Positions 11,361 through 24,587 of a stretch of 37,821 nucleotides of DNA are shown here, in pieces. The notes below the pieces were generated by a model, which was not told where the DNA came from, did no database searches, and saw only the letters and a list, made by a program, of their open reading frames with translations. The stretch is from Coriobacteriia bacterium (GTDB taxonomy: Bacteria > Actinomycetota > Coriobacteriia > Coriobacteriales > Eggerthellaceae): the NCBI GenBank assembly GCA_030526515.1, contig JAUNCQ010000019.1, positions 1 through 37,821 on the forward strand, in the 5' to 3' direction. A program made the translations under genes and the position numbers. Position 1 is the stretch's first letter, and each line of letters starts with the position of its first letter.

Positions 11361-14030
11361 CTACAGACCCAGGTCCGCTGCGGCGGCCACCAGCTCCTGG
11401 AAGCGGCCTACGCCGAACTTCCTGTACATGTGGGACAGATGGGACTTGACCGTGCTCTCGCTTACGCAGAGCTCCTCCGCGATCTCGGCACGACCCATGC
11501 CCGCCTGGGCCAGCTCCAGGATCTGCCGCTCCTTGCCGGTGAGGCCCACCAGCTGCGCCGCATCGCCTTCGGCCTCAAGGCGGGAAAACGCGGGGTTGCG
11601 CAGCAGCAGCTGCACGAAGCGACGACGCTCGTAGTCCGGCTTGGCGTTGGTCAGGTACACCATGAGCAGCGGGCGCACCTTTTCGGCCTGATGGGCGAAA
11701 GGAGCCACGATCTGCCGCTCCGCCGCCAGCTTCAGGCAGTCGTGCAGCAGCTTGCACGCCTTGGTCCGCTGGCCCTTCCCGAACGCCAGCAACGCCCGGT
11801 GGAGACCCAGGTCGACCTGGAACAGACCGTACCCATGCTCCTGGGCAGTCCGCTGCAGCTCCTCCAGCCTGGCGTCGGCCTGCTCGGCTCCCGAGGTAAT
11901 GGCCTGGAGCCCCTGACGAACCAGGGACGAATGGAACGTGACCGAGCGACCGGTCATGTCGAACTCTCGGTACACCTCCTCCGCGTCCTCGAAGCGACCC
12001 TGCGCGGCCTTCAGCATGGCGCGGCTCTGGAACGGCAGCATGGCCGTGCCGCGGGGGATGGCCGTCAAGCTGTACTTCACGGCGCCCATGGCCTCCAGGA
12101 GCATCTCGTCCGCCTGGTCGACCCGCCCCTCCTGAACGTACGCCCACGCACGGGCGACGCACCAGTCCAGGTACATGTCCACGTTGTAGTACCGGGAGAC
12201 CAGCGGCTTTGCCTGGTCAAGGCGACTCCCATGATTCCCTTCCACTCCCTGGACCAGGTCGATCATGACCGCCAGGGAAACGGTCGCGCCCCTGACCGGA
12301 TGGTCCGCAGGCGTCACCGTCAGCAGGCGCAGGCACGCCCGGGCCGCATCGGCCATGCTCCCCTGCTCCATGAGGGAATACGCCATCTCGTACTCGTTGA
12401 TCACGCCCATGAACCCGGCCGCGCCCGACTGGGAAAGGGACGCGAACTTCCGGTGCTGCTCCATTCCCTCCGCACAGCGCCCCTGCTGGTCAAGGGCCTC
12501 CGCCCGGCAGTTCGCAAGAATGAGGCGAAGGGGAAGCACGTTCTTCCCCCGCAGCCGCGGCTCGATGGAGCCCATGAGGCGCATGCCCTCCTCGAAGCGG
12601 CTCAGCAGGCAGAGCTTCTTCACGTCCAGCACGTCCAGCACCAGGTCCAGGTCGGCAGGGCGCTCCCCTACGGGCAGCTCCCGCAGCTGACGCTCCCAGT
12701 GGTCCATATTGTCCAGGTCGGCGGAAAGCACGTACGCCCATACCGCCATCAGGCAGAACTCCACGGAAAGGCTTCCCTGCTCAGGCACCCGCAGGAACCA
12801 CAGCAACCGCATCAGGTCGTCGATCTCGACATCAGGGCGAATGACGCGCACCAGGTCGAGCACGCTTTCCCGCTCGGTGGACAGGATCTTGTGCTTGGCA
12901 GCCGGAATCACCATGCCGTGCCGTATGAACCAGTGGGACGCCTTGGCATTCACCCGTCGGTACACATCCGGGCCCAGCAGGGATGATTGCTCCGCCAGCC
13001 ACTCGCTGAACAACGGGTGCACCAGGTAGCGGTCGCCCCGGGCATCCATGGGTGCCACGAACAAGCCGCGCTGGGAAAGCCCCTGCAGCACGGCGGGCAC
13101 ATCGTCCCGATCGAGCACGTAGCTGACGGTGCGGCAGCGCAGCACGCCGATGGACGACGTCTTGACCAGCAGGTCCTGCTCCGCTTCGCTCATACGGGCA
13201 AAGACCTCGTGCTCGAAGAAACGCCAGAAGACGTTGTCGGAACCGCTCACGTTGCGCAGCAGGCCGGGGACGTCCGCGGAGCCCGATGCATTGCGCAGGG
13301 CCATCTCCACCGCCATGGGCCAGCCCTGGGTCTTTTCGAAGAGCCGGTCCAGGTCGGCGTCGGATAGCTCCTGGACGGCGCTTTCGCCCACCGACTCCAG
13401 CAGCGCGTCACGAAGCTCGTCCCGGGTGGAGGCAAGGTCGGCGGTGCCCAGGTGAAGGGGCATCTCGGAGATTACGTGGCCTTCGAAGCTCAGGCGGCTG
13501 TACTGGGTGCGGGACGAAAGCACCACGTGCACGTCGCCGGAAAGGGCCAGCACGAAGGTCATGAGCTCGGACATGCTCACGTACCCCTCCAGCAGGTCGA
13601 AGCAATCCACGATCAGATACATCTGACCCTCCTGCAGCGCCAGGGCGCCCAGGTCGTTGGCCAGGGTGTAGATGCCCTCCAACGGCTCCATGGCCAGGTA
13701 CTCCTCCACGGAGCGCAGACCGCGGTCCCCCACGCCCCGCTCGATGGCGTGGTGCAGGTTCTGCCAGAAGCAGCGGGCATCGCGGTCGTTGCGGTCCACC
13801 GTCATCCAGGCAACCATGTTGCCGCAGGCCTCGCGCCGGTCGAACCAGTCCGTCAGCGCCGTGGTCTTGCCGTAGCCCTGAGGCGCGCTCAGGAACGTGA
13901 TGCGATGCCGCTCCGCCTGATCGAGCAGGGCCATGACGCGCTCACGCGGCTGCTTTCCCTGACGACGAATGGGAGGCATGGCCTTGGACAGAAGCGGTAC
14001 GGACGGAATTTGGCGGGCCGGCTGGGTCAT
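11361..14030 (-). CDS. MalT-like (LAL) LuxR-family transcriptional regulator
   Basis: An 889-residue large ATP-binding LuxR regulator. A P-loop (SAPQGYGKTTALTDW, Lys55) and a Walker B-like MYLIVDCFDLL define an N-terminal NTPase of the STAND type. The middle 400 residues are helical, TPR-like repeats for signal binding. The last 60 residues are a GerE/LuxR helix-turn-helix (LTGKERQILELAQAGMGRAE, then CVSESTVKSHL). In such proteins ligand and ATP drive oligomerisation on direct-repeat operators. It is the last gene of the molybdopterin oxidoreductase-ferredoxin unit, starting 17 bp after the ferredoxin stop with AAGGAGG before ATG 14030. Co-transcription with its probable target suggests autoregulation. 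The phased repeats at 17160-17220 are the obvious candidate site. Confidence 0.92.
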   Translation of the reverse strand: MTQPARQIPSVPLLSKAMPPIRRQGKQPRERVMALLDQAERHRITFLSAPQGYGKTTALTDWFDRREACGNMVAWMTVDRNDRDARCFWQNLHHAIERGVGDRGLRSVEEYLAMEPLEGIYTLANDLGALALQEGQMYLIVDCFDLLEGYVSMSELMTFVLALSGDVHVVLSSRTQYSRLSFEGHVISEMPLHLGTADLASTRDELRDALLESVGESAVQELSDADLDRLFEKTQGWPMAVEMALRNASGSADVPGLLRNVSGSDNVFWRFFEHEVFARMSEAEQDLLVKTSSIGVLRCRTVSYVLDRDDVPAVLQGLSQRGLFVAPMDARGDRYLVHPLFSEWLAEQSSLLGPDVYRRVNAKASHWFIRHGMVIPAAKHKILSTERESVLDLVRVIRPDVEIDDLMRLLWFLRVPEQGSLSVEFCLMAVWAYVLSADLDNMDHWERQLRELPVGERPADLDLVLDVLDVKKLCLLSRFEEGMRLMGSIEPRLRGKNVLPLRLILANCRAEALDQQGRCAEGMEQHRKFASLSQSGAAGFMGVINEYEMAYSLMEQGSMADAARACLRLLTVTPADHPVRGATVSLAVMIDLVQGVEGNHGSRLDQAKPLVSRYYNVDMYLDWCVARAWAYVQEGRVDQADEMLLEAMGAVKYSLTAIPRGTAMLPFQSRAMLKAAQGRFEDAEEVYREFDMTGRSVTFHSSLVRQGLQAITSGAEQADARLEELQRTAQEHGYGLFQVDLGLHRALLAFGKGQRTKACKLLHDCLKLAAERQIVAPFAHQAEKVRPLLMVYLTNAKPDYERRRFVQLLLRNPAFSRLEAEGDAAQLVGLTGKERQILELAQAGMGRAEIAEELCVSESTVKSHLSHMYRKFGVGRFQELVAAAADLGL

Positions 14031-14047: not shown

Positions 14048-14293
14048 CTAGACGCGCAAGGACATGGTAATGCGTACCGCATGGGTTGGGCAATTCTGCA
14101 GGCAAAGCCCGCAACCCGCGCAGTTCAGCGGGTCATGGGCAAAGGCCACGGTTTTCGCCCCCTCCTTGCGCAAGGTCAGCACGTCGCCGCGCCTGCACAG
14201 CCGAATGCACTTGCCGCAACCGATGCAGTACTCGGGGTCTATGTTCACTGCGGGCTTGCTCCGGGTGAACCCGGACGGGGGTCCGTAAACCAT
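14048..14293 (-). CDS. 2[4Fe-4S] ferredoxin-like protein
   Basis: An 81-residue electron carrier with two cluster motifs: CIGCGKCIRLC (CxxCxxCxxxC) and CAGCGLCLQNCP. After the first motif the usual proline is replaced by Arg-Arg. It probably passes electrons to the molybdopterin enzyme encoded immediately upstream, and has no signal peptide, so both would act in the cytoplasm. The start is taken at 14293 (MVYGPPSG) because GGAGG lies seven bases before it, whereas the ATG at 14305 has no ribosome binding site and sits at the edge of a hairpin. The alternative would add four residues. Confidence 0.88.
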   Translation of the reverse strand: MVYGPPSGFTRSKPAVNIDPEYCIGCGKCIRLCRRGDVLTLRKEGAKTVAFAHDPLNCAGCGLCLQNCPTHAVRITMSLRV

Positions 14294-14306
14294 GATGGCC
14301 TCCATG

Positions 14307-14343
14307 CGGAAAGGGGAAGCGACCTGTGCCGCTCCCCCTTCCG
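14307..14343 (-). promoter_or_regulatory. Intercistronic hairpin between oxidoreductase and ferredoxin genes
   Basis: On minus, CGGAAGGGGGAGCG (14343-14330) pairs with CGCTTCCCCTTTCCG (14321-14307) around an 8-base loop, ending two bases before the upstream ATG at 14305. It has no following T-run. It is more likely an mRNA-processing or stoichiometry element than a full terminator (inference). Confidence 0.55.
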
Positions 14344-14384
14344 TTCCATTGAGAGAAAAAGGTAACCGTTATTCGGGCGAAAGC

Positions 14385-17048
14385 TTACTTGCCGTTAAGC
14401 TCCCAGACGCCGATCTCCTTGTAGGCGCGATCCCAGATGGTCTCGACCTCAGGGTTGTCGTAGTGCTCGATGGGCACGTTTTCGTCGGACTGGTCCGTCG
14501 GGTCGATGCACGGGTACACCTTGCACAGCAGGCCGCGAGCGTTCCAGGTGGCGGTCATGCGGTCGGCCAGCTCGGGGTCGTCGTCCACCAGCACGTTGGC
14601 GCAGCTTTCGAACACGCCCTGGCTCCACGGCTCCTCAGCCGGCAGCTCGGGGAACCACCAGCCGTGGGGAACCTGGACCATGCCCTCGGGCACGTCCCAG
14701 CCCACGTGGGCCTTCTGGCGGATGCGGCCCATGCGGGTCTCGATCCAGATCCAGTCTCCCTCGCGGATGTGCAGCTTACGAGCATCGTTGATGTGCATCC
14801 AGGTCATGGGATACGGAACCACGGAGCGGGTGCCATGGCCGGGGGTGCGCATCTCGGAGTGGTACAGCGGGGAAACGCGACCGGAAGTGGTCAGGCGCAG
14901 CGGGTACTCCTTGGCCATCTCGGGGTTGCCCAGCGGGGTCTCCGGCTCGGTGTAGGTCGGGATCGGATCGTAGCCCAGGTCCTCCAGGACGGAGCTGAAC
15001 ATCTCGGCCTTGCGGGACGGGGTTGCGAAGCCGCGGAGCTGACCGTTGGCCAGGGGCTTGGCGTACTTGTAGAACTCGGTGCCGTAGGGGAAGTAGTTGC
15101 CCATGTTGGTGGCAATCTCGCGGTTCATGTCGGGCACGCGCTCCAGGCGGTACTCGATCAGGTCCTCATAGGTATCCCAGGGCCAGTACTCCTCCTGGCC
15201 GCAGGCGCGACCCAGGGCGCTGAAGAAGTCGAAGTCCATGTGGCGGTCGTACAGGGGCTCGACGCCGCGGTCGCCGGTGACGATGAAGTCATTGGAGTCC
15301 TCGGAGGTGGTGCAGCAGGGGCGCTCCATCCAGTCAGCAGCCGGGATGATGTAGTCGGCGATTGCTGCGGTCGGGGTCTTCCAGTAATCCACCACGACCA
15401 GGAGCTCCAGGGCCTTCAGGGCCTTGTAGACGCGCTTGGTGTTAGGTGCCCAGGCCAGCGGGTTGGAGGACCAGCAGATGCAAGCGGTGACCGGGTACGG
15501 ATCCTTCTCCAGGATGGCCTTCCACATGAGGGACGGGCTGCACAGCATCTGGTGCATCATGGGACGGTTCAGGTTGAACATCTTGCGATAGCACTTGTCG
15601 ATTGCCTTGAAGCCGGGCCAGGACATGACGCGGAACTGCTCGTTGCCGATGTAGTCCTTCTGGATCTCCGGGGTCAGGACGTCTGCCAGCTCCAGCTCGG
15701 AGTCGCGGACGGGGAACTTCTTGTCGACGTCGTCCGGGTCAGCCGGCTGGCCGACGTACTCGCCGCCGGGGTTGTCGATGTTGCCGGTCAGGATACGGGC
15801 AATGGTCTTGGCAATGCCGAACTGGGAGGCGTTGATGCCGTGCTGGTCGCCGCCGCCCAGGCCCCAGCCGATGAATGCCGGGCCGTTGGTGGCGTACAGG
15901 CGAGCAGCCTCGCGGATCTTACGTGCGGGGACGTTGGAGATCTTGGAAGCGCGCTCGGGCGTCCAGTCCACGAAGCGGGCGCGGATTGCCTCGAAGGCGG
16001 TCCAGCACTCGACCTGGGAGCCGTCGGCCATGGTCACAGTCCAGGAGCCCTCGATGGTCGGGGTGACCTCGCCGTCCTGGTAGTAGCGGTTCTCATCGGA
16101 GCACCAGGTCACGAACTCGCCGTTGATTTCGTTCACTGCCAGGAAGTCCTCATGTTTGCCGCCGTTGTACTCGTCCAGGCGAACCAGCTTGCCGGTGTCC
16201 TTGCGGACCAGGAACGGAGCGTTGGACCAGTAGCGGACGAAATCGTCGTTCCACAGGCGCTCGCCGAAGATCACGTTCAGCCAGGCGAAGGAGATGGCGC
16301 AGTCAGTGCCGGGATAGGGCTGCAGCCACACGTCGGCGGTTGCAGAGCCGTCGATGCAGGTGGTGTCGACGTTGATGTACTGGGCCGGGTTGTCCTGGTT
16401 CACGTCGATGCGACCGCGCATGGTACGCCACAGCGGACCCTCGGGTGCGTAGGCTTCGGACCAGCGCTTGCCCCAGTTGACGATGGTGCCGGTATGCTCG
16501 GCGGAAACGGGCATGATAGCCTCCACCGGCCAGCCAACCATGGCCATGTTCAGGGAGTAGTTCCAGCACCAGCAGATGGTGCCTGGGTCAACCACGTTGC
16601 CCGGATTGCCGAACAGGTTGAAGAAGCGGGTGCGGGCCCACAGGTGGTCGGAGCGATAGGTGCCCTCAGAGGAGAACAGCGTCTTGGCGCCGTACTTTTC
16701 CTTCAGGGCCAGCAGCTTGGTGGAAATCTCGTCGATTGCCTGCTCCCAGGAGATCTCCTCCCAGCGATCCTCGCCCTTTTCGCCCACGCGCTTCATGCAG
16801 TGGTTGATGCGCTTGGGATGATAGTGGAACTTGATGGCCTTTTCGCCCTTGTTGCCCAGGCGGTTGCACAGGACGGTGCCCTCTTCCTCGTTGGGGCGCA
16901 TCTCGACCAGGCGGCCGGTCTTGGCGTCGACGCCGCACCATACGCCGCAGTTCATGTGGCACATAAAGCAGCGGGTACGGCGCCAGCGGATGCCGTTCTC
17001 GTCGACGGTATTGTTGGGCACGCCCAGCATGGATACTGTCTCACTCAT
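14385..17048 (-). CDS. Molybdopterin oxidoreductase of the acetylene hydratase / catechol dehydroxylase-like group
   Basis: An 887-residue bis-MGD enzyme of the DMSO reductase superfamily. The N-terminal [4Fe-4S] motif is CFMCHMNC with Cys27, Cys30 and Cys34, and Cys61 in VLCNRLG. TICWCWN near residue 150 offers a cysteine as the metal ligand. The C-terminal cofactor-binding domain has EYPLRLTTSGR, WMHINDARKL and VPHGWWFPE. Segments such as YDPIPTYTEPETPLGNPEMA and the terminal GLLCKVYPC match the layout of Pelobacter acetylene hydratase, as I recall it. The catalytic Asp13 of that enzyme (CDIN) is His31 here (CHMN), so acetylene hydration is unlikely. There is no Tat signal, so the protein is cytoplasmic. 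Catechol dehydroxylases of gut Eggerthella and Gordonibacter belong to this broad group, and the small ferredoxin and LuxR partner fit that pattern (inference). The substrate is unknown. Confidence 0.9.
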   Translation of the reverse strand: MSETVSMLGVPNNTVDENGIRWRRTRCFMCHMNCGVWCGVDAKTGRLVEMRPNEEEGTVLCNRLGNKGEKAIKFHYHPKRINHCMKRVGEKGEDRWEEISWEQAIDEISTKLLALKEKYGAKTLFSSEGTYRSDHLWARTRFFNLFGNPGNVVDPGTICWCWNYSLNMAMVGWPVEAIMPVSAEHTGTIVNWGKRWSEAYAPEGPLWRTMRGRIDVNQDNPAQYINVDTTCIDGSATADVWLQPYPGTDCAISFAWLNVIFGERLWNDDFVRYWSNAPFLVRKDTGKLVRLDEYNGGKHEDFLAVNEINGEFVTWCSDENRYYQDGEVTPTIEGSWTVTMADGSQVECWTAFEAIRARFVDWTPERASKISNVPARKIREAARLYATNGPAFIGWGLGGGDQHGINASQFGIAKTIARILTGNIDNPGGEYVGQPADPDDVDKKFPVRDSELELADVLTPEIQKDYIGNEQFRVMSWPGFKAIDKCYRKMFNLNRPMMHQMLCSPSLMWKAILEKDPYPVTACICWSSNPLAWAPNTKRVYKALKALELLVVVDYWKTPTAAIADYIIPAADWMERPCCTTSEDSNDFIVTGDRGVEPLYDRHMDFDFFSALGRACGQEEYWPWDTYEDLIEYRLERVPDMNREIATNMGNYFPYGTEFYKYAKPLANGQLRGFATPSRKAEMFSSVLEDLGYDPIPTYTEPETPLGNPEMAKEYPLRLTTSGRVSPLYHSEMRTPGHGTRSVVPYPMTWMHINDARKLHIREGDWIWIETRMGRIRQKAHVGWDVPEGMVQVPHGWWFPELPAEEPWSQGVFESCANVLVDDDPELADRMTATWNARGLLCKVYPCIDPTDQSDENVPIEHYDNPEVETIWDRAYKEIGVWELNGK

Positions 17049-17159: not shown

Positions 17160-17220
17160 TTGGTTGATTTTTGGGTTTAGGTTGGTTGATGTTGGTTGAG
17201 TTTGGTTTAGCTAGGTTGAT
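17160..17220. promoter_or_regulatory. Array of TTGGTTGA-like units at 10-bp phasing (candidate operator)
   Basis: Five consecutive decamers fill 17171-17220: TTGGGTTTAG, GTTGGTTGAT, GTTGGTTGAG, TTTGGTTTAG and CTAGGTTGAT. A further TTGGTTGAT lies at 17160-17168. Repeat starts fall every 10 bp, so all copies face the same side of the helix. The array lies between the divergent oxidoreductase and trigger-factor-like genes, 110-170 bp from each start. It is G/T-rich on plus and C/A-rich on minus. A direct-repeat operator for the large LuxR protein is the favoured reading (inference). Confidence 0.65.
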
Positions 17221-17312: not shown

Positions 17313-17843
17313 ATGACCGAGTCCATGCCCACCGCTCAGCTTTCGTCCTACGAACCCGCCCAGATCCACCTTGGCGCGGAGGTGCAAAAGATGTCTGCGC
17401 CCGAGCTGGAGGGTTACAAGCGCGCGCTGACCGCCATAGAGCTGGCTAAGCGCGTGACCGGCGTGATGGACCCGGCCATCTACGAGCAGGCCGCCATGGG
17501 CATCCGCAGCCAGGCCGAGGCGCAGGCCAAGGCCGCAGGGACCACCCTCATGCAGACCATGAGGGAAAACAACATTCCTTCTGCCCAGTACGACCGCATG
17601 GTCAGCATGCAGGCCATGGACATGGTGAACCAGGGTCTGGCCCTGGACGCGTGGGCGATGCACTTCCAAATCGAGCCCACGGAAGAAGACGTCATGGAGC
17701 TGCTGTCCCAGATGGCGCCTGGTGGCGAAAGGGACCTGCTTGAGCGCGCCAGCCAGGACCCGGCACAGCTGCAGGCCCTGGGCACCGCCGCCCTGCGCTA
17801 CTCCGCCAACAAGCACGCCGCCAGCGTGGCCGTGGTGGACTAG
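17313..17843 (+). CDS. Trigger factor C-terminal-domain-like protein (possible dedicated chaperone)
   Basis: A 176-residue soluble, helix-rich protein without signal peptide. The stretch GLALDAWAMHFQIEPTEEDV, followed by MELLSQMA and ALGTAALRYSANKHAASVAVV, follows the pattern of the C-terminal chaperone domain of trigger factor. The ribosome-binding and prolyl isomerase domains are absent. The preceding AEAQAKAAGTTLMQTMRENN and IPSAQYDRMVSMQAMDMVNQ also fit the arm helices. It is divergent from the molybdopterin enzyme across the phased repeat array, so a role as a folding or cofactor-insertion helper for that enzyme is attractive but unproven. The start at 17313 follows AAGGAGGAACACC. Its stop overlaps that of the convergent gene at 17840 in the sequence CTAG. 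The resemblance was judged by eye. Confidence 0.65.
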   Translation: MTESMPTAQLSSYEPAQIHLGAEVQKMSAPELEGYKRALTAIELAKRVTGVMDPAIYEQAAMGIRSQAEAQAKAAGTTLMQTMRENNIPSAQYDRMVSMQAMDMVNQGLALDAWAMHFQIEPTEEDVMELLSQMAPGGERDLLERASQDPAQLQALGTAALRYSANKHAASVAVVD

Positions 17844-19826: not shown

Positions 19827-22800
19827 CTACACGCGACCCTCAGCCAAGTTGGCCTTGGCCACGCTGATCATGAGCTTGATGCGGTTGAGCTGGTTCACCT
19901 CAGACGCGCCGGGGTCGTAGTCCACCGCAACGATGTTGCTGGCCGGGTAGCGCCTGCGCAGCTCCTTGATCACCGACTTGCCCACAACATGGTTGGGCAG
20001 GCAGGCGAAGGGCTGGGCGCACACGATGTTCGGCGCACCGGTCTTGATCAGCTCCACCATCTCGGCGGTCAGCAGCCAACCCTCGCCCATGGAGTTGCAG
20101 TGGCTCAGGATGCCTTCGCAGTAAGTGGCCAGCTCGTAGATGTCCGCCGGCTCGTCGAAGCGCTTCGACGCGGCCAGGGCATCGTTGGCCGGCTTGCGCA
20201 TGCGGGCCAGGGCCTTCAGGCCCACGTTGGAGCCGATGGCGCTCTTCAGCGGCTTACCCATCTCGTGGCGCTGCAGCTCGGCGTTGACGATGCTGAACGT
20301 GAAGAACTCCATCAGGCCCGGCACCACGGCCTCGCAGCCTTCGCGCTCGATCACGTCCACCACCTGGTTGTTGGCAGTGGGATGGAACTTCACCAAGATT
20401 TCGCCCACCACGCCGACGCGGGGCTTGGTGCCCTCGTTGATCAGCGGCATGGCGTCGAACTCGCGCACGATGGCCTTGCAGGTGCGGGTGTAGTCGCCCC
20501 AGCCCAGACCGTGGGCCAGCTGCTTCTGGCAGATGCCCATCCACTTGTCGAACAGGCGCTGGGCCGCACCCGGCTCCGCCTCGTACGGGCGGGTCCGGTA
20601 CAGGCACTGCATGAGCAGGTCGCCGTAGATGATGGCGAAGATGGCCTGGATCAGCATGGCCGGGGTCATCTTGAAGCCGGGGTTGTCCTCGTCCAGGTCC
20701 TTGAAGGACAGGCTGATCACCGGCACGTGCTCCAGGCCCGCTTCCTTCAGGGCCTTGCGGATCAGGGCAATGTAGTTGGTGGCACGGCAGCCGCCGCCGG
20801 TCTGGGTGATGATCACCGCCAGCTTGTCCGTGTCATAGCGGCCGGACATGACGGCCTCCATGATCTGGCCCGTGACCAGGATGGACGGATAGCAGATGTC
20901 GTTGTTCACGTACTTCAGGCCCGCGTCCACGGCGCCGGTGTCGACGGAGGGCAGCAGCTCCAGGTTGTAGCCGTGCTTGTGGAAGATCTCGATCAGCAGG
21001 TCGAAGTGGATGGGTGCCATCTGCGGACACAGGATGGTCCAGCCCTCATCCTTCATCTTCTGGGTGTACTGGGCGCGATAGAACTCCGTGGATGCGGCGT
21101 TGCGGGTCTTGAACCGCTTGGCCACCTCGGCGGATGCCTTGTCCACGAAGGAACGCGGACCCTCGGGCACCTGGGAAGCCAGCTCCTCGACGGCGTCCAG
21201 GACCTTCTGGGCCATCTGGGCACGCAGTCCCTTGGCTTCCTCGGCCACCCCTTCCGCTACCTCTTCGGCAATGTGGACGGCGGTTTCAGCGGGCGAAACA
21301 GGCTCAGACTTGCGGGTCGGCGCCTGCTGGTCGCTTACCAGGGTCCAGCCGTTCTGGTCGTGGGTCCAGTGGCCGCCCTCCACCTGGGGGACGGTTTCCG
21401 TCTGGACGTCCACATGATCGGCCAGCTCATGGGTCTTCAGGGCCGTATCCACCCGCTTCTGGGCGTCGGCCACAATGGCGTGGGCAGCCTCCACCGCCGG
21501 GCAGGCGGAGCCGGAGGACAGGGCGGCCTCGCGCTCGGCGTCGGCCTTTTCCTCCTCCTGGTGCATCAGGGCGGCCAGCAGGGAGCGCACGCGGATGCGG
21601 GCGGCGCCCAGGTTGGACACCTCGTCGATCTTCAGGACGGTGTAGACCTTGCCGGATGCCTCCAGGATCTCCTGCACCTGGTCGGTGGTGAGGGCGTCCA
21701 GGCCGCAGCCGAAGCTGTTCAACTGGATCAGGTCCAGGTCGTCGCGTTGGGTGGCCACCTTGGCGGCGGCATACAGGCGGGTATGGTACATCCACTGGTC
21801 GACCACGCGGATGGGACGCTCCAGGGTGCCCAGGTGGGCAATGGAGTCCTCGGTCAGCACAGCCAGACCGAAGCTGGTCAGTAGCTCGGGAATGGCATGG
21901 TTGATCTCGGGGTCGTTGTGGTACGGACGGCCGGCCAGCACGATGCCGTGGGTGCCGGTCTGCTCCATCCACTCCAGGGTCTCCTCGCCCTTCACGCGCA
22001 TGGTGCGCTTGAAGTTTTCGTCCTCTTCCCAGGCCACGTCGACGGCAGCGTCGATTTCCTTCTGGGTGGGCAGGGCGTCCTTGGTGCACATGGCGTCGGC
22101 GTGGTTCTTGGTCATCTCCACGAACAGGCGCTTCTTCAGGTGCTCCTTCTGGTCGTAGGGCAGCCAGGGGTTCACGAACTTGGTGCGGGACTCCAGCAGC
22201 TCGTCGATGTTCAGGCGCAGGGACTCCGCGTAGCTGGACACGATCGGGCAGTGGTAGTGGTTGCCGGCGGTAGAGTCCTCCATGCGCTCGAAGCGGCTGC
22301 AGGGGAACCAGATGAAGTCCGGCTCCTTCTCCAGCAGGTTCATGACGTGGCCGTGGGAAAGCTTGGCCGGATAGCACACGCTCTCAGACGGCATGGACTC
22401 GATGCCTGCCTCGTAGGTGGCCTTGGTGGATGCGTCGGACACGATCACCGAGTAGCCCAGCTCCGTGAAGAAGGTGTGCCAGAACGGATAGTTCTCGTAC
22501 ATGCTCAGCGCACGGGGAATGCCCACGGTGCCACGGGGCGCGGAGTCAGCGGGCAGGCTCTGGCGGTCGAAAAGAAGCTTGCTCTTGAAGTCGTACAGGT
22601 TCGGCACGGCCTTGGCCTCGTCATGGGTGCCGGCGCCCTTTTCGCAGCGGTTGCCGGTGATGAAGCGACGATGCTTGCCGGTGACCGGGTCCTTGCCGAA
22701 GTCGTTGACCGTCAGCAGGCAGGCGTTGGAGCACATCTTGCAGCGCAGGGTCTTGTGGGTGGGCTGCAGCTCGTCCAGGGCCTGGGCGGAAAGCAGCGTG

Positions 22801-24587
22801 GTGACCTGGCCTTCCTTGGCGCGGTCGCGGGCCAGCAGCGCGGCGCCGTAGGCGCCCATGTTGCCGGCGATGTCCGGACGCACGGCGTTGACCTCGGACA
22901 GCTGCTCGAAGGCGCGCAGGACGGAGTCGTTCAGGAACGTGCCGCCCTGGACAATGACCTTGGTGCCCACGTCATGGGGGTCGCGGATCTTGATGACCTT
23001 GAACAGGGCGTTCTTGATGACGGAGATGGCCAGGCCGGCGGCAATGTCGCCCACCGTGGCACCTTCCTTCTGGGCCTGCTTCACGCGGCTGTTCATGAAC
23101 ACGGTGCAGCGGCTGCCCAGGTCAACGGGGTTTTCGGCCTTGTTGGCGGTCTTTGCGAACTCGGAAACGTCCAAGTTCAGGCCGCTGGCGAAGGACTCGA
23201 TGAAGCTGCCGCAGCCGGAGGAGCATGCCTCGTTGAGCATGATGGAGTCAATGACGCCGTCCTTCACGCGCAGGCACTTCATGTCCTGGCCGCCAATGTC
23301 CAGGATGAACTCCACGCCGGGCAGCATCTCCTGGGCGCCGCGCAGGTGGGCGACGGTCTCGATTTCGCCCGAGTCGACCTGCAGGGCCTCGAGCAGCAGG
23401 CCTTCGCCGTAGCCGGTGACGGTGGCGTGGCCGATCTGCACCTTGGGGTTGCCGTCGGCGTCAACGGGCAGCTGCTCGTACAGGGACGCCAGGGCGTGCT
23501 TGGCGCAGCCCAGCACGTCGCCCTTGTTGGAAACGTAGTGGCTCCACAGGATGCGGGCCTGCTGGTCGATCAGCGCGGCCTTGAAGGTGGTGGAGCCGGC
23601 ATCGATGCCCAGGTAGACCGTGCCCTCGGCGCTGGCCAGGTCGGCGCGCTCCACGCGCTCCTGGTCGTGGCGGGCCTTGAACTCGGCGTAGTCGGCATCG
23701 TCCTTGAACAGCGGGGGCAGGCGCACGACTTCGCTGCCCTGGACGTCGCCCAGGTTGCGCAGGCGCTCAAGCACGTCGTTCAGGGGCTCGACCTTGGCGT
23801 CGTCCGCCTTCATGCCGGCCAGCGCGCAGCCCTTGGCCACGAACAGGTGGGCGTCGTCGGGGACGATGATGTGCTCTTCGTCCAGCTCCAGGGTTTCGTA
23901 GAAGCGCTTGCGCAGCTCGGGCAGGTACTGCAGCGGGCCGCCCAGGAACGCCACATGGCCGCGGATGGGTCGGCCGCAGGCCAGGCCGGAGATGGTCTGG
24001 GTCACCACGGACTGGAAGATGGAGGCGGCAATGTCCTCGCGCTTGGCGCCTTCGTTCAGCAGCGGCTGCACGTCCGTCTTGGCGAACACGCCGCAGCGGC
24101 TGGCAATGGGATAGATGGTGGTGTGGCTCTTGGCCAGCTCGTTCAGACCGCCGGCGTCGGTGTTCAGCAGGGCCGCCATCTGGTCGATGAACGCACCGGT
24201 GCCGCCGGCGCAGGTGCCGTTCATGCGCTGCTCGATGCCGTTGTCGAAGTAGATGATCTTGGCGTCTTCGCCGCCCAGCTCAATGGCCACGTCGGTCTTG
24301 GGGATGAAGCTTTCCACCGCCGTCTTGGACGCAATGACCTCCTGGATGAAGCTCAGGCCCAGCCACTGGGCAAGCAGCAGGCCGCCGGAGCCGGTGATGG
24401 CAATGGTCATGGGCTGGTCGCCGTACTCGACGGCTGCTTCGCCCAGCACTTCGATGATGGTGGCGCGCACGTCCGCATGATGGCGTCGGTACACCGCATA
24501 GTGCACCTGACGCTGCTCATCAAGGATGGCCAGCTTCACCGTGGTGGAGCCGACGTCAATGCCGATGTGCAAGTTTTCCTGTGACAT
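19827..24587 (-). CDS. 2-hydroxyacyl-CoA dehydratase activase, giant multidomain form
   Basis: A 1586-residue protein of the BadF/HgdC activator superfamily. Two ASKHA ATPase domains are in tandem: the first starts GIDVGSTTVKLAIL (residue 9) with cluster ligands in NGTCAGGTGAFID and ASRCGVFAKTD, and the second starts GIDAGSTTFKAALI with NEACSSGCGSFIE and GSRCTVFMNS. Each pair of Cys would bind half of a [4Fe-4S] cluster, so one chain mimics the activator dimer. CKMCSNACLL follows, then DUF2229-type and HgdB-like domains up to the C-terminus. Such proteins use ATP to push low-potential electrons into a dehydratase or reductase. The partner is not encoded here. The length fits, or slightly exceeds, the usual 1400-1500. 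It is monocistronic: a promoter-like TATAAT lies upstream and a terminator downstream. Confidence 0.88.
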   Translation of the reverse strand: MSQENLHIGIDVGSTTVKLAILDEQRQVHYAVYRRHHADVRATIIEVLGEAAVEYGDQPMTIAITGSGGLLLAQWLGLSFIQEVIASKTAVESFIPKTDVAIELGGEDAKIIYFDNGIEQRMNGTCAGGTGAFIDQMAALLNTDAGGLNELAKSHTTIYPIASRCGVFAKTDVQPLLNEGAKREDIAASIFQSVVTQTISGLACGRPIRGHVAFLGGPLQYLPELRKRFYETLELDEEHIIVPDDAHLFVAKGCALAGMKADDAKVEPLNDVLERLRNLGDVQGSEVVRLPPLFKDDADYAEFKARHDQERVERADLASAEGTVYLGIDAGSTTFKAALIDQQARILWSHYVSNKGDVLGCAKHALASLYEQLPVDADGNPKVQIGHATVTGYGEGLLLEALQVDSGEIETVAHLRGAQEMLPGVEFILDIGGQDMKCLRVKDGVIDSIMLNEACSSGCGSFIESFASGLNLDVSEFAKTANKAENPVDLGSRCTVFMNSRVKQAQKEGATVGDIAAGLAISVIKNALFKVIKIRDPHDVGTKVIVQGGTFLNDSVLRAFEQLSEVNAVRPDIAGNMGAYGAALLARDRAKEGQVTTLLSAQALDELQPTHKTLRCKMCSNACLLTVNDFGKDPVTGKHRRFITGNRCEKGAGTHDEAKAVPNLYDFKSKLLFDRQSLPADSAPRGTVGIPRALSMYENYPFWHTFFTELGYSVIVSDASTKATYEAGIESMPSESVCYPAKLSHGHVMNLLEKEPDFIWFPCSRFERMEDSTAGNHYHCPIVSSYAESLRLNIDELLESRTKFVNPWLPYDQKEHLKKRLFVEMTKNHADAMCTKDALPTQKEIDAAVDVAWEEDENFKRTMRVKGEETLEWMEQTGTHGIVLAGRPYHNDPEINHAIPELLTSFGLAVLTEDSIAHLGTLERPIRVVDQWMYHTRLYAAAKVATQRDDLDLIQLNSFGCGLDALTTDQVQEILEASGKVYTVLKIDEVSNLGAARIRVRSLLAALMHQEEEKADAEREAALSSGSACPAVEAAHAIVADAQKRVDTALKTHELADHVDVQTETVPQVEGGHWTHDQNGWTLVSDQQAPTRKSEPVSPAETAVHIAEEVAEGVAEEAKGLRAQMAQKVLDAVEELASQVPEGPRSFVDKASAEVAKRFKTRNAASTEFYRAQYTQKMKDEGWTILCPQMAPIHFDLLIEIFHKHGYNLELLPSVDTGAVDAGLKYVNNDICYPSILVTGQIMEAVMSGRYDTDKLAVIITQTGGGCRATNYIALIRKALKEAGLEHVPVISLSFKDLDEDNPGFKMTPAMLIQAIFAIIYGDLLMQCLYRTRPYEAEPGAAQRLFDKWMGICQKQLAHGLGWGDYTRTCKAIVREFDAMPLINEGTKPRVGVVGEILVKFHPTANNQVVDVIEREGCEAVVPGLMEFFTFSIVNAELQRHEMGKPLKSAIGSNVGLKALARMRKPANDALAASKRFDEPADIYELATYCEGILSHCNSMGEGWLLTAEMVELIKTGAPNIVCAQPFACLPNHVVGKSVIKELRRRYPASNIVAVDYDPGASEVNQLNRIKLMISVAKANLAEGRV

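Follow-up and report, generated by a model that had tools for sequence, protein, structure and literature searches.

Which reaction is catalyzed by a molybdenum enzyme that shares the architecture of acetylene hydratase (AH) but carries a histidine in place of a catalytic aspartate, and that is encoded next to its own ferredoxin? This question is raised by a locus in the window, by which we mean the whole stretch of 37,821 nucleotides that was analyzed; it comes from contig C73 of the 2.4-Mb draft genome of a Coriobacteriia bacterium belonging to a family (Eggerthellaceae) that includes Ellagibacter and Gordonibacter. The host is a gut bacterium and kin of urolithin-producing species. In Gordonibacter and Ellagibacter, dozens of Mo reductases set the polyphenol metabolites of a person, and most of these enzymes have no known substrate. 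The locus comprises the following features:

14385-17048, minus strand: catalytic subunit, DMSO reductase (bis-MGD Mo/W) superfamily, 887 amino acids, Tat-less (open reading frame, Pfam, fold)
16947-16970, minus strand: CFMCHMNC, residues 27-34, with [4Fe-4S] cysteines and His31 (AH Asp13); the fourth cysteine is Cys61
16572-16574, minus strand: codon of Cys159, predicted Mo/W ligand (AH Cys141; from alignment)
14048-14305, minus strand: 2[4Fe-4S] ferredoxin, 85 amino acids, predicted to supply electrons; separated by 79 bp from the catalytic gene upstream of it
11361-14030, minus strand: MalT-like LuxR-family regulator, 889 amino acids from ATG 14030, 17 bp after the ferredoxin gene
17160-17220, no strand assigned: putative operator, four exact GGTTGA copies (TCAACC on the enzyme strand) and two GGTTTA-type copies, mostly 10 bp apart
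17313-17843, plus strand: trigger-factor-like protein, C-terminal domain only, 176 amino acids, divergent

The catalytic subunit and its subfamily

The 887-amino-acid enzyme is a member of the DMSO reductase (bis-MGD) superfamily by its domains and by its fold. Its Pfam matches to PF00384 (2.3e-15) and PF01568 (5.4e-17) both pass the cut-off, and its AlphaFold model (mean pLDDT 88.3) finds the best match among solved structures in AH of Pelobacter acetylenicus (PDB 2e7z; Z 41.7, rmsd 2.0 Å over 715 residues), the second-best entry reaching a Z of 33.4. A sequence search likewise ranks AH first (294 bits versus 157). The AH-like layout claimed in a preliminary description of this DNA is thereby borne out, as is the claimed lack of a Tat signal: judged from the sequence, a hydrophobic Tat-type stretch is absent at the N-terminus of the catalytic subunit. 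Besides the fold, the enzyme has in common with AH the four iron-sulfur (FeS) cysteines and the cysteine metal ligand; Cys159 is invariant in an alignment of 36 sequences. The motif Cys27-x2-Cys30-His31-Met32-Asn33-Cys34, followed by Cys61, places CHMN where AH has CDIN, and His31 is aligned to Asp13 of AH, just as the preliminary description had read it. Two further differences from AH are the dedicated ferredoxin and an extra segment of about 75 residues (276-350), absent in AH, that can be aligned with type II enzymes, for example perchlorate reductase. AH catalyzes no net redox reaction and is not known to have such a ferredoxin partner.

Asp13 is needed for the activity of AH. The preliminary description had taken the exchange of this residue for His as the distinguishing feature of the enzyme, a claim that did not withstand a wider comparison. 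In a 97-member superfamily alignment, made up mostly of sequences from the window genome, Ellagibacter and Gordonibacter, 79 enzymes carry His at the position of His31, including all putative Eadh1-3 genes, while Asp is present in two, AH itself and one AH-like Gordonibacter protein. His31 as a novelty is thus ruled out; His is the norm of the family, and its presence instead of Asp speaks against a hydratase function without singling the enzyme out as new. The Eadh1-3 genes were assigned by eam-cluster context and not by accession matching, the marker being an amidohydrolase gene beside two Mo genes in Gordonibacter or three in Ellagibacter (PMC12771579).

The relationships of the enzyme were reconstructed in a maximum-likelihood tree (50 sequences, 732 columns, mixture model) whose dehydroxylase reference consists of the Eadh genes assigned by eam context, which stand in for Dadh, Hcdh, Cadh, Dodh and Cldh. 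The window protein groups with its relatives in a clade of their own (100/100). The Eadh-containing clade is equally well supported (100/100) and does not contain the window subfamily, which sits within a group (98/95) that also holds AH. FastTree applied to the 97 sequences gave the same picture. Joining the subfamily with the dehydroxylase clade was rejected (p-AU 0.001), and joining it with AH gave a p-AU of 0.31, the unconstrained tree setting the subfamily apart from AH and sequence L109. Judged by these sequence comparisons, the enzyme represents a separate, fully supported subfamily, an uncharacterized branch between AH and the catechol dehydroxylases. The preliminary description was right in seeking it outside any characterized clade that could be tested, and the kinship with catechol dehydroxylases that it had suggested is supported. 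The possibility that the enzyme is Eadh1, Eadh2, Eadh3 or the Gp Hcdh itself is ruled out by the clade and, for Gp Hcdh, also by length (887 versus 770 amino acids).

The predicted pocket sets the subfamily apart as well. Tyr131, Trp160 and Glu583-Asp584 are present in all 20 subfamily members aligned, and their AH counterparts are Ile113, Ile142 and Trp472-Glu473. Across the subfamily, Tyr, Trp, Gly/Ala/Ser and Glu (Tyr131, Trp160, Gly204 and Glu583 in the window enzyme) take the places of the hydrophobic ring of AH (Ile113, Ile142, Trp179, Trp472), so that both traits of AH, the Asp and the hydrophobic ring, are missing. The Eadh genes have Gly or Ala at the position of Tyr131 and Tyr at that of Trp160, and they differ at the Glu583-Asp584 site too. 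The split seen in the tree agrees with one in the FeS motif: of 46 His-bearing sequences that lack the first cysteine, 44 have an extra cysteine at +3 after the last one, whereas the window enzyme, unlike the dehydroxylase clade, keeps the classic four. The rearranged motif (first Cys missing, Cys at +3) occurs in L081, L082, L095, L096, L103 and other members of the dehydroxylase clade.

The catalytic subunit shares 91.5% of its amino acids with its Ellagibacter counterpart at only 60% identity of the fourfold sites, versus amino-acid identities of 59% for the ferredoxin and 44% for the LuxR protein in the same comparison. The subunit is under strong purifying selection, and these values argue for a chemistry that has been conserved and not newly acquired. 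Recent horizontal transfer as the source of the 92% identity is unsupported, because the fourfold sites are just 60% identical. Among 397 genomes of the order, 26 carry the subfamily. Its absence from most relatives bears on the loss in close relatives that the preliminary description had listed within its refuting conditions, but such patchiness is usual for these enzymes.

Operon structure, putative operator and neighboring genes

The genes for the enzyme, the ferredoxin and the MalT-like LuxR protein look like one minus-strand operon with gaps of 79 and 17 bp, which extends beyond the enzyme-ferredoxin pair named in the preliminary description. The ferredoxin contains eight cysteines in two CxxCxxCxxxC motifs (Pfam Fer4_7, 1e-13). 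That the enzyme has its own 2[4Fe-4S] ferredoxin, as the preliminary description held, is corroborated by its relatives: at least 24 of the 31 subfamily loci have a small eight-cysteine ferredoxin gene immediately downstream of the orthologue, a pairing that is not due to chance, and of the other seven loci at least two are truncated by a contig end. The LuxR protein matches GerE (1.2e-13) and, weakly, a MalT-type TPR domain; its start is placed at ATG 14030, which is preceded by AAGGAGG, and not at TTG 14114 of a longer reading frame. A LuxR-type gene is located near nearly all relatives of the window enzyme, and a large MalT-like one is present in 19 of the 31 loci. The LuxR proteins known to control dehydroxylases are, in contrast to the MalT-like regulator of the window, 10-12-TM proteins (PMC9734109).

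The repeat array is placed in the divergent intergenic region, upstream of the enzyme gene. Relative to the enzyme start, the TCAACC copies of the window are found at -171, -151, -141 and -119; at locus L015, whose enzyme is 88% identical, TCAAC[CT] sites occur with the identical 20/10/22 spacing (-157, -137, -127 and -105), and Ellagibacter has sites at -147, -136 and -114. Shuffled sequences contained 0.2-0.3 sites, and three to four sites arose in at most 1 of 2000 shuffles. No such array was found at the orthologous genes of Gordonibacter, where the LuxR proteins show about 25% identity. We infer that it is a putative operator for the MalT-like protein.

This gene arrangement, offered as new in the preliminary description, has precedents. 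A Tat signal is missing from Dodh and related Gordonibacter enzymes, whose gene neighbors code for a small 4Fe-4S protein and a transporter (PMC7028382); Eadh1-3 are likewise Tat-less with a small FeS partner and have, in addition, a LuxR regulator (PMC12771579). The combination of Tat-less enzyme, small ferredoxin and LuxR protein is therefore the published Gordonibacter-type layout. With the Gordonibacter-type dehydroxylases (Eadh1/2/3, Dodh, Gp Hcdh) the window enzyme also has the His and the Cys ligand in common, but it belongs to a separate clade (AU p 0.001) with a different FeS motif and exceeds the 770 residues of Gp Hcdh. The Eggerthella-type enzymes (Dadh, Hcdh, Cadh) possess a Tat signal, a ferredoxin and a membrane anchor, whereas the window enzyme has no Tat signal and no anchor gene adjoining it. 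The layout was already known, unlike the clade.

Transporters of the MFS, SLC13 or APC kind occur at many subfamily loci; a transporter gene was not seen beside the window operon. In the nearest non-Ellagibacter group, five loci (L017, L018, L029, L148, L173) hold a pair of genes for pyrogallol-hydroxytransferase-like large and small subunits (PDB 4v4c, 3.5e-112; copies 78-100% identical), and an amidase plus a transporter of the MFS or SLC13 kind are also encoded at some of the five. Residues that we take to be His144, Asp174 and Ser175 of pyrogallol hydroxytransferase are present, and Tyr404 is not kept; the neighbor is called similar only and not a true pyrogallol hydroxytransferase. These neighbors hint at a polyhydroxylated aromatic substrate. 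A homologue of the large subunit was not found in the window genome at E <= 1e-100, so that the aromatic hint comes from other species and is not evidence for the window strain. The close orthologues are from ellagic-acid-converting genera, among them those of Ellagibacter isourolithinifaciens DSM 104140 (92% identical) and Gordonibacter sp. 28C (71%).

Several small gene families accompany these loci. A MoxR-type AAA ATPase (AAA_5, 1.1e-16) and a protein that matches VWA only weakly, below the cut-off, adjoin subfamily members at L026:16-3231, L149:5246-8663 and L167:4324-7526, a pair that recalls CoxD/CoxE-type metalloenzyme maturation; at L139:17435-18859 the ATPase gene stands alone beside a subfamily member within the stretch read. 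Small zinc-ribbon proteins starting with MCF[RN]P are encoded beside Mo genes at L017:4144-4383, L018:7555-7788, L029:7531-7764, L146:15007-15342, L161:7232-7564, L162:7226-7573, L163:4253-4534 and L166:12088-12327. At five loci (e.g., L016:6734-7075 and L026:10747-11169), the Mo operon adjoins a gene for a small membrane protein that resembles PQ-loop proteins by a weak Pfam match.

A trigger-factor-like gene beside the Mo enzyme

A stripped-down trigger-factor gene next to a Mo enzyme is the unexpected feature of this locus. Its reading frame is listed from 17226, but ATG 17313, with AAGGAGG in front, is the better start. The resulting 176-amino-acid protein is 59% identical to the Ellagibacter protein encoded at the same place; the Trigger_C match of the latter is above the cut-off (5.7e-10) and that of the window protein below it (0.0022). 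Its model (pLDDT 93.8) matches trigger factors at Z 9.5-11.4, and both the ribosome-binding N domain and the PPIase domain of trigger factor are missing from it.

Trigger factor is normally single-copy (PMC11559001). We found seven matches in the window genome, five in Ellagibacter and three to seven in Gordonibacter, and a trigger-factor-like gene in 10 of the 31 subfamily loci. Full-length paralogues elsewhere in the subfamily loci lack the GFRxGKxP ribosome-binding motif of the canonical copies; other paralogues are without the PPIase or the N domain, and the C-terminal domain alone remains in the window and in Ellagibacter. Two genomes assembled as single contigs, G070 and G073, have every non-canonical copy (6/6 and 4/4, respectively) no farther than 4.2 kb from a Mo-enzyme gene. 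Their 83 and 66 Mo hits put no more than about 23% of either genome within that distance, and the chance expectation for 6/6 is about 1e-4; the two genomes share loci, and their chance figures are therefore not multiplied. The window genome (contig C8), G009 and G024 provide exceptions: each has one extra copy around which the 14-16 kb examined contained no Mo gene. Collectively, trigger-factor paralogues cluster near Mo-enzyme genes in related genomes, though not universally; of the homologues in the window genome and in the Gordonibacter genomes (L186-L201), most adjoin such genes.

A parallel is provided by PceT/RdhT, trigger-factor homologues dedicated to the reductive dehalogenases of organohalide-respiring Firmicutes (PMC8905343; PMC3306737). 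Common to both systems is a trigger-factor homologue encoded beside an anaerobic reductase; the window differs in that the partner is a Tat-less Mo enzyme and in that the protein consists of the C-terminal domain only. By analogy, the trigger-factor paralogues may mature Mo enzymes. A literature search in a limited collection, and thus weak evidence, returned no paper joining trigger factor with a catechol dehydroxylase. Dehydroxylase-clade Mo enzymes that have lost all FeS cysteines are encoded at L035:7660-9987 (window genome, contig C41) and L092:3036-5444 (Ellagibacter, contig C3), each within about 3 kb of a trigger-factor-like gene; they carry T, S, Y and N at the four Cys places (motif PPGSHPVGYG) and keep the His and the Cys metal ligand.

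Candidate reactions

We give roughly even odds (about 0.5) to the reading that the enzyme is a substrate-inducible, cytoplasmic, ferredoxin-dependent Mo (possibly W) reductase whose likeliest reaction is the dehydroxylation of a plant phenolic and not a hydration. A small molecule would enter the cell and activate the MalT-like LuxR protein, which, as the conserved footprint suggests, would bind the phased TCAAC[CT] repeats and turn on the operon and perhaps the divergent gene. Gene neighborhood and the PceT precedent suggest that the trigger-factor-derived protein may hold the apo-enzyme during cofactor insertion. By homology, electrons are predicted to pass from the 2[4Fe-4S] ferredoxin through the [4Fe-4S] cluster (Cys27/30/34/61) to the bis-MGD metal on Cys159. 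The metal would then strip oxygen from the substrate, likeliest a plant-phenolic hydroxyl, with His31, predicted to lie over the metal in a pocket that is polar, unlike that of AH, as the probable proton donor.

This reading is favored by the dedicated ferredoxin (at least 24/31 loci), the LuxR gene (19/31), the transporters at many loci, the origin of close orthologues in ellagic-acid-converting genera and the strong purifying selection on the catalytic subunit. Dehydroxylation is the leading guess because the nearest characterized reductases and the neighbors of close orthologues point there; the layout shared with Eadh1-3 and Dodh and the His found in the putative Eadh genes argue for it by analogy. 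It is not given by descent, since the window enzyme lies outside the Eadh clade, and the pocket that differs from Eadh, the possible sister relationship with AH (p 0.31) and the absence of a transporter gene beside the window operon count against it.

The same electron path could instead serve a reductase of a non-phenolic substrate (an S- or N-oxide, an unsaturated or halogenated acid) that performs no dehydroxylation. The separate clade and pocket, segment 276-350 with its alignment to type II enzymes and the varying transporter kinds (MFS, SLC13, APC) among relatives would fit, but the nearest characterized reductive relatives use phenols and pyrogallol-hydroxytransferase-like genes adjoin in five loci; we regard this alternative as rather unlikely. 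An ordinary Gordonibacter-type catechol dehydroxylase, differing in substrate only, would account for the identical layout and the identical His. We consider it improbable, however, given the position of the enzyme outside the 100/100 Eadh clade, the rejected joining of the two groups and the FeS motif, in which that clade lacks the first Cys and has one at +3. Our doubts are strongest for a hydration or another non-redox lyase reaction of the AH type, in which His31 would stand in for Asp13: the need of AH for that very residue, the replaced hydrophobic ring and the dedicated ferredoxin all speak against it, even though AH is by far the closest fold (Z 41.7 versus 33.4) and a clade of subfamily and AH is compatible with the data (p-AU 0.31).

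Going beyond the phenolic dehydroxylation that we favor, we tentatively entertain a wider proposal. The subfamily might be a separate enzyme class, reductive and with a non-catechol substrate, matured by trigger-factor-derived chaperones that, freed from the ribosome, were recruited by Coriobacteriia for Tat-less Mo reductases in place of TorD and that are reduced here to the bare substrate-binding domain. If the trigger-factor paralogues are maturases, this would partly explain the hard expression of such enzymes in standard hosts, and a co-expression recipe would follow. As this work defines one conserved, regulated subfamily in cultured species, its inducer and substrate can be found by RNA-seq.

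Elsewhere in the window (19827-24587, minus strand), a 1586-amino-acid protein, recognized by reading alone, resembles a tandem BadF/BcrA-type CoA-dehydratase activase fused to a long C-terminal part.
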